Positions 55,178 to 64,000 of a DNA stretch of 64,000 nt are shown one piece after another (positions within the stretch are counted from its first letter, which is position 1; each line of letters begins with the position of its first letter). The stretch is from Acidiferrobacteraceae bacterium (GTDB taxonomy: Bacteria; Pseudomonadota; Gammaproteobacteria; Arenicellales; UBA868): the NCBI GenBank assembly GCA_002724185.1, contig PBOB01000002.1:14843-78842 (forward strand). The letters run 5' to 3'. The notes under the pieces are model-generated. The model was not told the DNA's origin. It ran no database searches and saw only the letters and a list, made by a program, of their open reading frames with translations. Both the position numbers and the translations under genes were made by a program.

Positions 55178-55972
55178 TTAGGAGCATACTGCCTCAATTG
55201 TATGGTTTGAAGTAATATTTGAGAAGCTATAAGTGCAGCCACCGGCCGCACAGTTTTCAGCAACGCCATCAACATTGAGAACTGATAACGTTCCAGAATT
55301 GACCGTTATGGTAATGGATTGATCGGATCCCTTTAACACAGAAATATCACCGGAGGGAGAAAAGGCGCAATCGCCAGATTGAACAGAAGTCGAGATAACG
55401 TAGCTTGTGTTTATATCTCCAGGAGTGCTGACTGTATCCATGAAAGTTACTTTGAAGTTGTGCGCTTTTACTATTGGACCAATAACGAAATAACGGTTTG
55501 GGTGGTCACCGGACAATTGAGCGGCGACACCATCAAATTCAACTATATTATCAATATGCCCCTTTTTTGCTAAAACACTTAGCTTCAGCATAGAGTAACC
55601 ATTGACATTCTTAACGCCACCCGGAGTAACTGTGCCTTCTCCGGAGCTGATTATAGTTATATCAAAACAGCCGTGACTCACTGATAAGCTAGAATCAGAA
55701 GCTATAACATTTTTTGGTTTAGGAGTTTGTGCATAAATTGTGCCTACGTTTGTAGTTGCGGTACATCCACCACTATTCTTGGCTATAAATTTCCCTGTAA
55801 AGCCTGCTGTTAAGTAGAGCTCAGCTGCTTGATCAAGAGTCAGTCCTCTAAATTCTGGCACAGTAGTGATGGTGGCATGCCCGGTATCGGTCGTGGTGCC
55901 CGATTGATTGCATGCGCTAAGCGCAGCAAGACTAGCAGCTATAAGAACTAGCAGCATTTTAGGGTGAGGCAT
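55178..55972 (-). CDS. PASTA-containing lipoprotein with bacterial repeat domain
   Basis: 264 aa lipoprotein. A signal peptide ends in the lipobox LSAC (Cys about residue 21). Residues about 35-100 form a PASTA-like domain: VPEFRGLTLDQAAELYLTAGFTGKF ... AQTPKPKNVIASDSSLSVSHG. The rest contains two copies of a beta-repeat seen in cell-surface proteins (ITIISSGEGTVTPGG..., then SGDCAFSPSGDISVLKGSDQSITITVNSG...YSFSNITSNHTIEAVC). PASTA domains bind cell-wall or glycan structures, mostly in Gram-positive kinases and penicillin-binding proteins; a stand-alone lipoprotein form in a gammaproteobacterium is uncommon. Function unknown. There are several cysteines in the mature part, consistent with disulphides. 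Confidence 0.6.
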   Translation of the reverse strand: MPHPKMLLVLIAASLAALSACNQSGTTTDTGHATITTVPEFRGLTLDQAAELYLTAGFTGKFIAKNSGGCTATTNVGTIYAQTPKPKNVIASDSSLSVSHGCFDITIISSGEGTVTPGGVKNVNGYSMLKLSVLAKKGHIDNIVEFDGVAAQLSGDHPNRYFVIGPIVKAHNFKVTFMDTVSTPGDINTSYVISTSVQSGDCAFSPSGDISVLKGSDQSITITVNSGTLSVLNVDGVAENCAAGGCTYSFSNITSNHTIEAVCS

Positions 55973-56175: not shown

Positions 56176-56204
56176 TTGTGGTAAAAGGTAAATCGTTCTA
56201 GAAT
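56176..56204 (+). promoter_or_regulatory. Sigma70 promoter of a very small gene
   Basis: TTGTGG (56176-56181) and TAGAAT (56199-56204) are separated by the optimal 17 bases. The expected start of the RNA is near 56211, 30 bases before the small reading frame at 56241. This gives the small gene a complete transcription unit of its own. Confidence 0.6.
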
Positions 56205-56240
56205 GAAGACCCCTAAATAAACATACAAGGAGGTGATCCA

Positions 56241-56312
56241 ATGTCTAGTGATATGTCATTACTCGTGGTGAGCGTTGGTGTTTTTTGGAGACTAGAGGAT
56301 ATCTCCTCCTAG
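56241..56312 (+). CDS. Very small protein (23 aa) with a perfect extended Shine-Dalgarno
   Basis: The frame encodes 23 residues (MSSDMSLLVVSVGVFW..., ending in LEDISS) before TAG 56310-56312. AAGGAGGTGATCC (56227-56239) immediately upstream is complementary to the full 13-base 3' tail of 16S rRNA, an exceptionally strong ribosome site. A sigma70 promoter lies before it and a terminator after it. The end of the frame (56297-56310) can pair with the ribosome site (AGGAGG with CCTCCT, then GAT with ATC and CC with GG), so the coding region would form the loop of a self-sequestering hairpin. No family is recognised. Alternatives are a regulatory RNA with several GGA motifs (CsrA-type binding sites) or a leader peptide. 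The middle of the peptide is hydrophobic. Confidence 0.5.
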   Translation: MSSDMSLLVVSVGVFWRLEDISS

Positions 56313-56362
56313 TGGAATAACACATGCTCCAGTGACAATGTTCACTGCGATGACCAATCACG

Positions 56363-56389
56363 GCGCCCACGTAAGTGGGCGTCTTCTTT
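56363..56389 (+). terminator. Rho-independent terminator of the 56241 small gene
   Basis: CGCCCAC (56364-56370) and GTGGGCG (56375-56381) form a perfect 7-bp stem closed by the GNRA-type loop GTAA, followed by TCTTCTTTA. Just upstream a second hairpin, CAGTGA with TCACTG (56330-56347), is also present. The predicted transcript is about 180 nt. Confidence 0.75.
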
Positions 56390-62779: not shown

Positions 62780-62830
62780 ATGGAGAATAAATTAAAGACG
62801 CGAAGCAAGAGGCGCAACCCAAGTGGTTAG
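62780..62830 (+). CDS. Short leader frame overlapping the start of the MttB-family gene
   Basis: ATG 62780 has a strong ribosome site (AGGGGA about 7 bases upstream) but the frame ends after 16 basic residues at TAG 62828-62830. That stop overlaps GTG 62823, the first possible start of the MttB-family frame, which is in a different register. The Arg/Lys-rich peptide (KTRSKRRNP) resembles the basic N-terminus usual in that family. It is either a coupled leader peptide, or the true start separated from the gene by a one-base frameshift. Confidence 0.4.
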   Translation: MENKLKTRSKRRNPSG

Positions 62831-64000
62831 CACACGACCAGCAAGGCGCCGAACTCGCACTCGAAATGCTCGAACATTAGTCACCTCCGTAGTTACGCCG
62901 GGTCAGCATGGCGGACAGTATAGGCCTCTCGCAGCGTCTGATCTTAGTCGCTTGCATAACGCCGCACTTACTATGCTTTCGGAGATCGGGATGGCTAACC
63001 CAATTCCTATTCTTGAACAACGTGCCCTTGAGTCCGGATGCAACATTAATGAGTATGGACGATTATGTTTTCCACGATCGTTAGTCGAAGATATTATCGC
63101 CTCATCACCTAAGGAGTTGGTTTATTACGGTAGAAATCCACAGCACGATGTTGAGTATAAAGGTACGCGAGTACACTTCGGCGCTTCTGGTGAAGCGGTT
63201 CGAATACTCGATCATGAGACCGGCAAATACCGACCATCAACACTTAAAGATGTTTATGATTGCGGGCGAATTATAGATAAATTGGAACATATACATGATT
63301 ATTCGCGATGGGTGGTTCCAACCGATATTAGTGATCAATTAGAGGCTGATATCAACACAGCCTATGCAAGCTTTGCTGCAACTGAGAAGAGCGTTGCCCT
63401 GAGTTTTGATAGCGCAAATAATGTTGATCCAGTATTAATAATGGCGCAGCTAATAGCGGGTAGCGAGAAGGCATTTCGAGATCGCCCTTTCTGCAACGGT
63501 GGAGGTTGTTGTGTTGTATCGCCACTAACGTACGCAACTGAGAATAGCGAAGTGTGTATAGCATCAACTCGTTTCGGCTCACCTGTTTGGATAGTCGTTG
63601 CGCCACAAGCCGGAGCTACAGCACCGGCTGCATTGGCTGGTGCATTAGCACAGGCAATCGCAGAAGCTCTTGCCGGTATTCTGCTCATTCAGCTTGTGGT
63701 TCCAGGCTATCCCGTTACATTGGGATCTTGGCCTTTTGTGTCGGATCTTCGCACCGGTGCATTTTCTGGAGGTGGAGGTGAGGAGGGTCTTTTGAATGCA
63801 GCAGCAGCCCAAATTGCAAACTTCTATGGCTTACCATGCAGTGTAAGCGCTGGAATGACTGACTCAAAAATTCCAGATAACCAAGCTGGTTTTGAAAAGG
63901 GGATAAATGTCACATTAGCAGCTTTAGCTGGTGCAAATTCTATTGGCGAATGTGCTGGCATGGTGGCAAGTTTAATGGGCTGCTCTTTCGAATCCTTAGT
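62823..64000 (+). CDS. Trimethylamine methyltransferase (MttB) family protein, partial
   Basis: The gene is open from GTG 62823 to the window edge (about 392 codons, C-terminus missing). It has an Arg-rich start (RPARRRTRTRN), GGQYRPLAASDLSRLHNAALTMLSEIGMANP, HFGASGEAVRILDHETGKYRPSTLKDVYDC, FCNGGGCCVVSPLTYATE and GAFSGGGGEEGLLNAAAAQIANFYGLP, all typical of the superfamily. No in-frame amber codon is seen, so it belongs to the non-pyrrolysine branch, whose characterised members demethylate glycine betaine and related quaternary amines onto a corrinoid protein. The upstream ABC transporter would bring in the substrate. The corrinoid partner would lie beyond the window. The start is uncertain because of the overlapping leader frame at 62780. 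Confidence 0.82.
   Translation, partial: MVSTRPARRRTRTRNARTLVTSVVTPGQHGGQYRPLAASDLSRLHNAALTMLSEIGMANPIPILEQRALESGCNINEYGRLCFPRSLVEDIIASSPKELVYYGRNPQHDVEYKGTRVHFGASGEAVRILDHETGKYRPSTLKDVYDCGRIIDKLEHIHDYSRWVVPTDISDQLEADINTAYASFAATEKSVALSFDSANNVDPVLIMAQLIAGSEKAFRDRPFCNGGGCCVVSPLTYATENSEVCIASTRFGSPVWIVVAPQAGATAPAALAGALAQAIAEALAGILLIQLVVPGYPVTLGSWPFVSDLRTGAFSGGGGEEGLLNAAAAQIANFYGLPCSVSAGMTDSKIPDNQAGFEKGINVTLAALAGANSIGECAGMVASLMGCSFESL

Follow-up and report, generated by a model that had tools for sequence, protein, structure and literature searches.

A conserved proteobacterial mini-gene with a complete Shine-Dalgarno sequence and a covarying fold may encode a CC2171-like, ribosome-gated RNA

The DNA analyzed here, a stretch of 64,000 nucleotides hereafter called the window, is part of a single contig in a draft genome, whose class, Gammaproteobacteria, was judged from its relatives. 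It carries a mini-gene that an earlier note, made from the sequence alone, had described as self-contained, with a promoter, a 13-base perfect Shine-Dalgarno (SD) sequence, a 23-amino-acid frame and two hairpins. All of these parts were found, and their recurrence in relatives indicates a conserved stand-alone gene. The upstream neighbor (55178-55972, reverse strand), a PASTA-domain protein and putative lipoprotein, is divergent from the mini-gene, and the downstream gene is convergent. Elsewhere in the window, at 62823-63998, the Rfam family PYLIS_3 (pyrrolysine insertion, mttB) matched positions 63855-63957 within an MttB-like frame; this frame showed no in-frame TAG as far as the window end, and probably encodes a non-pyrrolysine homologue. 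The features of the mini-gene, all on the forward strand, are the following.

56176-56204, forward strand: putative sigma70-type promoter read from the sequence, with a -35 box TTGTGG (56176-56181), a 17-nt spacer and a -10 box TAGAAT (56199-56204)
56211-56226, forward strand: short unstructured leader; in relatives AACAAC often lies directly 5' of the SD
56227-56239, forward strand: 13-nt Shine-Dalgarno sequence AAGGAGGTGATCC, complement of the 16S rRNA 3' tail GGAUCACCUCCUU
56241-56312, forward strand: mini reading frame, ATG at 56241, 23 codons and TAG; selected for length and largely not for amino acids
56248-56252 (codons 3-4) with 56357-56361, forward strand: helix P1, adjoining the terminator, with covariation across families
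56262-56273 (in the frame) with 56340-56351 (after the stop), forward strand: helix P2, four pairs with two-sided changes
56277-56281 with 56320-56324, forward strand: helix P3 of the family consensus, one-sided changes only
56293-56310, forward strand: hairpin P4, formed by the final part of the frame, six of seven pairs with two-sided changes
56325-56338, forward strand: hairpin P5 in the conserved 3' half, from the family consensus fold
56362-56389, forward strand: Rho-independent terminator, stem at 56362-56383; a terminator-like site is present in 157 of 187 family loci

The most striking part of the mini-gene is its ribosome site. Pairing of the SD with GGAUCACCUCCUUA reached -25.5 kcal/mol, while the best value across the 44 window genes of at least 150 amino acids was -12.3 kcal/mol (median -7.7), and none of 8,000 random 22-mers was as strong. 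The sequence AAGGAGGTGATC occurs only once in the entire assembly. The suggestion of a rare match to the full 16S tail is thus borne out. The ATG follows the SD after one base and opens the 23-amino-acid frame MSSDMSLLVVSVGVFWRLEDISS. The promoter match is weak (TTGTGG-17-TAGAAT, 8 of 12 consensus positions) and was missed by a consensus scan, but relatives carry a -10-like TA(C/A/G)ACT box at an equal distance from the SD. Transcription would be expected to start near 56211. In 148 of 193 family members, CAAC was found in the 12 nt that precede the SD, compared with 10% in shuffled sequences; the window copy carries AACATAC in its leader.

To describe the distribution of the mini-gene, sequence searches, covariance models and motif scans were combined. 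A match was present in 23 of the 61 genomes searched, host counted. The host family (f1) has ten genomes with a completeness of at least 90%, and each of them matched at least in part, one only at a contig end and one with a degenerate copy. Shared elements in the alignment are the promoter box, the SD, the start, the frame and the 3' half. The degenerate copy (locus L272, genome G014) has a broken 3' half and an altered SD, and another genome (G025) carries a second, partial copy consisting of the 3' end and terminator only (L271); both are signs of decay or duplication. A covariance model built from 18 family members found more copies in three other families of the order (f7, f8 and f12). 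A class-wide search with model R1 at an E-value of 1e-5 returned almost nothing outside the host, and the wider distribution therefore rests on motif scans and on order-level R1 matches. A scan of 84,980 species genomes for AAGGRGGTGATCYARTGTCT gave at least 119 stretches, mostly from Alphaproteobacteria among the matches listed. With a looser SD motif, 73 of 399 genomes across the phylum were positive, nearly always with a single copy, compared with a single control match; within the class, 9 of 369 genomes were positive. Some motif matches are chance or unrelated, for example four starts of korB-like genes. The same layout was found in other Gammaproteobacteria and in more than 100 Alphaproteobacteria.

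Several observations were made around these loci. One genome (G443) harbors two mini-gene classes (L239 and L240), one with an MSHCH frame of CC2171 type, the other with an 18-codon MSHGSA frame. In Bradyrhizobium, a tRNA gene lies about 150 nt from the mini-gene on the opposite strand (L043, L054 and L065). Matches on viral contigs were mostly ordinary phage genes with an identical SD, a few being alphaproteobacterial flanks. Several loci on these contigs (L151, L158, L161-L166, L168, L169 and L172-L174) carry a phage gene family starting with VSNCGTKR behind the same perfect SD, and this family was set aside as unrelated to the mini-gene.

The reading frame is conserved in its extent. The SD-start motif yielded 196 cellular loci, of which 187 have a frame no longer than 35 codons. 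The nine exceptions are the four korB-like gene starts, two other loci and three Azospirillum loci (L061, L086 and L098), in which the perfect SD and an ATGTCT start precede a protein of 57-59 amino acids with a signal-peptide-like N-terminus. In a set of 140 non-redundant peptides, from which frames longer than 35 codons had been excluded and which has to be read together with these nine exceptions, 98% end at codons 14-27, whereas the share is 25% for shuffles and 19% and 14% for the other two frames. All three stop codons, TAA, TAG and TGA, are in use. A terminator about 50 nt past the stop was detected in 157 of 187 short-frame loci, against 7 of 141 control stretches. The 23-amino-acid frame at 56241-56312 is real, with start, stop and length conserved.

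The RNA is predicted to be strongly folded. For positions 56213-56385, the minimum free energy was -65.9 kcal/mol compared with -44.1 kcal/mol for shuffles (z = -5.28). What the earlier note called two hairpins is more aptly seen as a single long composite hairpin followed by the terminator. In f1, the consensus P1-P5 comprises 34 pairs, of which 12 show two-sided changes; 94.9% of cells are paired, and no shuffle equaled this fold. P3 is absent from the minimum free energy structure of the window copy. In P4, the 5' arm is purine-rich and the 3' arm of CUCC type. P1 joins codons 3-6 of the frame to the bases just 5' of the terminator. It is invariant inside f1, and its arms change in step between families: AGTGAT/ATCAC in f1, AGTGAGA/TCTCAC in f12 and AGTATTTTG/CAAAATAC in f8. 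When P1 arms were swapped between partners, none of 20,000 swaps paired as well as the true partners, and only 1 of 10,000 did so in a wider set with very different arms. Class-wide, pairs between the frame and the post-stop region numbered 23.4 versus 11.7 in dinucleotide shuffles (p = 3e-5 on 23 representatives, used because kinship inflates counts), while pairs within either half were fewer than in shuffles. The long-range helices have their 5' arms inside the frame and their 3' arms past the stop. The stop lies near the apex of the fold, often slightly beyond it, at a median of 81% of maximal crossing. Mean identity was 0.83 in the 3' half, which is among the best-conserved parts, and 0.94 over the SD and start. 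Conservation of the SD is partly ascertained because most members were collected with the SD motif, those of f1, f7 and f8 having been found by BLAST or covariance model.

We tentatively favor, at slightly less than even confidence, that the mini-gene produces a stand-alone structured RNA of about 175 nt, similar to CC2171, that works as a ribosome-gated regulatory RNA. The exceptional and mostly open ribosome site, the selection on the start, stop and length of the frame, and the covariation of P1 agree with this reading. The footprint of an initiating ribosome extends about 15 nt past the A of the start codon. P1 begins 7 nt past this A, inside the footprint, and ribosome loading and P1 would therefore be mutually exclusive. 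From this geometry, a loading ribosome would break P1. Translation up to the stop would then remove the 5' arms of P1-P3 and pass P4, leaving the conserved 3' half single-stranded. The 3' half would be shown or hidden according to the ease with which free 30S subunits load, and it could act in trans on an mRNA or a protein, or set the lifetime of the RNA. Either role would be likelier than control of a neighboring gene, because neighbors and their orientation are not conserved.

The main rival, which we consider unlikely, is a 30S decoy, as the earlier note had also envisaged: an abundant RNA would tie up 30S subunits through the whole 16S 3' tail, and its frame would let ribosomes terminate and recycle. 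The full 13-nt complement is indeed retained through wobble changes, since the SD changes observed in f1 and f8 (GGAGG to GGGGG, GATC to GGTC) keep G-U pairing with the 16S rRNA, and the leader and SD are open. However, a decoy needs neither a covarying P1-P5 fold nor a conserved frame length, and its effect would require a high copy number.

A functional micropeptide, with the RNA serving as a small mRNA for a product acting in trans, appears doubtful. The strong ribosome site and the selection of start and stop agree with it, but the substitution pattern shows no synonymous excess in the real frame over the dummy frames. The pN/pS ratio was 0.82 in f1 (dummy frames 0.92 and 0.62) and 0.90 in Rhodobacterales (0.69 and 0.80), and it reached 1.46 in Bradyrhizobium and 1.56 in Rhizobium. 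One alphaproteobacterial group (n = 16; 0.62 versus 1.20 and 1.04) was the only sizeable group leaning to coding. A pairwise count of indel phase was set aside as unreliable, because it came from global alignments whose 3' parts are unequal. Peptides of different lineages have only M/V-S in common, and eight family peptides gave no match above cut-off in Pfam and NCBIfam. The suggestion of a new small protein is not upheld by these results. On sequence evidence, selection has kept the frame and its length but largely not its amino acids, which suggests that translation of the mini-frame, rather than the peptide, is the signal. For the ribosome-gated RNA, the peptide would probably be a by-product.

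More doubtful still is a structured RNA whose action on ribosomes would not depend on translation, for example in maturation of the 16S 3' end or on a subset of ribosomes. That the complement spans the mature tail in full, farther than an ordinary SD does, would suit such a role, but the selected stop codon and frame length would be left unexplained.

The earlier note had also proposed that the last codons of the frame pair with the SD, hiding the start until warming or translation frees it. The 11-pair complementarity is exact, but the corresponding fold (-52.7 versus -65.9 kcal/mol) lies 13 kcal/mol above the best one, with a pairing probability of 0.000 at each temperature from 10 to 45 °C; over this range SD openness was predicted to be flat, and no thermosensor was found. 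Across the family, SD openness is slightly higher than in shuffles (0.455 versus 0.373, p = 0.02 on representatives), and in transcripts cut at the stop the SD is not more hidden than in shuffles. A self-hiding frame or RNA thermometer is therefore very improbable as a general explanation. SD-complementary stretches in the family bodies are slightly stronger than in shuffles (-12.2 versus -10.6), these being mononucleotide shuffles, as were some of the other controls; this leaves room for a lineage-specific switch. In the Rhodobacterales, the SD is fully paired with a CAUCUCCUU segment 5' of the terminator (openness 0.02 in L055), and the start codon lies within a local hairpin, unlike in other members. 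This SD-paired form is seen in L055 and in further Rhodobacterales loci among L027-L145, L241-L244 and L254, and the modeled structures indicate that the switch may differ in this order.

A leader or attenuator of a neighboring gene is barely credible: a tiny frame with a terminator behind it looks like a leader-peptide attenuator, but the downstream gene is convergent here, 94 of 144 loci have it on the opposite strand, and synteny is not shared. The chance that the RNA is a CsrA sponge is negligible, since the GGA motifs are few: ANGGA occurs once in the window copy and 0-2 times in most relatives, it is not conserved, and one genus has the SD AAGGGGG, without GGA. The placement of these motifs relative to hairpin loops was judged by eye on the alignment.

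Returning to the ribosome-gated RNA, a broader version would be a widespread class of alpha- and gammaproteobacterial RNAs that sense free 30S subunits or the state of the ribosome (e.g., ribosomes lacking bS21). The near-complete complement of the 16S tail would capture the subunit, and the 3' half would be opened by a disposable frame whose length is limited. We regard this version as a speculative possibility. The comparison ties CC2171, an uncharacterized sRNA of Caulobacter, to a far wider array of mini-genes spread over two proteobacterial classes, and suggests that selection acts on translation and not on the peptide. Control of the 3' half by ribosome loading, and the role of that half, are testable in Caulobacter, Rhodobacter and Bradyrhizobium.

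Among known systems, dual-function sRNAs such as Spot 42/SpfP and rnTrpL/peTrpL (PMC10117765) are likewise short RNAs with a tiny translatable frame and a conserved structure. Their peptides are functional, whereas the peptide sequence of the mini-gene is not conserved, and its ribosome site is far stronger than theirs. Leader-peptide attenuators follow a like logic, in which the translating ribosome alters which helices form, but the mini-gene controls no downstream gene in cis, and any action would be in trans. In the extended SD-anti-SD sites of Staphylococcus aureus, pairing likewise extends along the 16S tail toward the start codon, and bS21 would hinder such extended pairing in E. coli (PMC13009471). 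A complement that reaches within 1 nt of the start and is conserved in Proteobacteria is odd for this reason, and raises the question of why it is kept where bS21 is thought to block the pairing.

The closest resemblance is to CC2171, a Caulobacter sRNA (Landt et al. 2008) listed by Rfam as an sRNA gene (RF01867). A search of the accessible literature returned no functional study of it, and the frame is unmentioned there; Schrader 2014 states that two ncRNAs predicted earlier are translated. At the gathering score, Rfam gave no match for the element. Below it, RF01867 was the only matching family, aligning over its full length (1-159) with 21.7 bits (E-value 0.006-0.024) against the cut-off of 75. 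Caulobacterales and Hyphomicrobiales include members that exceed this cut-off, and intermediate scores were obtained for L239 (68.9 bits), L237 (54.0) and L190 (48.8). With an SD-less model (R2), L057 was the only significant match outside the family (E-value 0.0037). As this match stands alone and the window score is below the cut-off, we call the RNA CC2171-like and not a member of the family. Both have the ribosome site and start AAGGAGGUGAUCCARUGUCU, a helix that starts directly behind the start codon and ends immediately ahead of the terminator, a similar length and a single intergenic copy, all of which the window copy displays. They differ in the start codon, AUG in the window and GUG in CC2171, and in the sequence of the arms. 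Common descent of the RNA bodies across the two classes is plausible. As part of the same ribosome-gated reading, and with the same reserve of not quite even confidence, the window RNA may be a gammaproteobacterial relative of the alphaproteobacterial CC2171.
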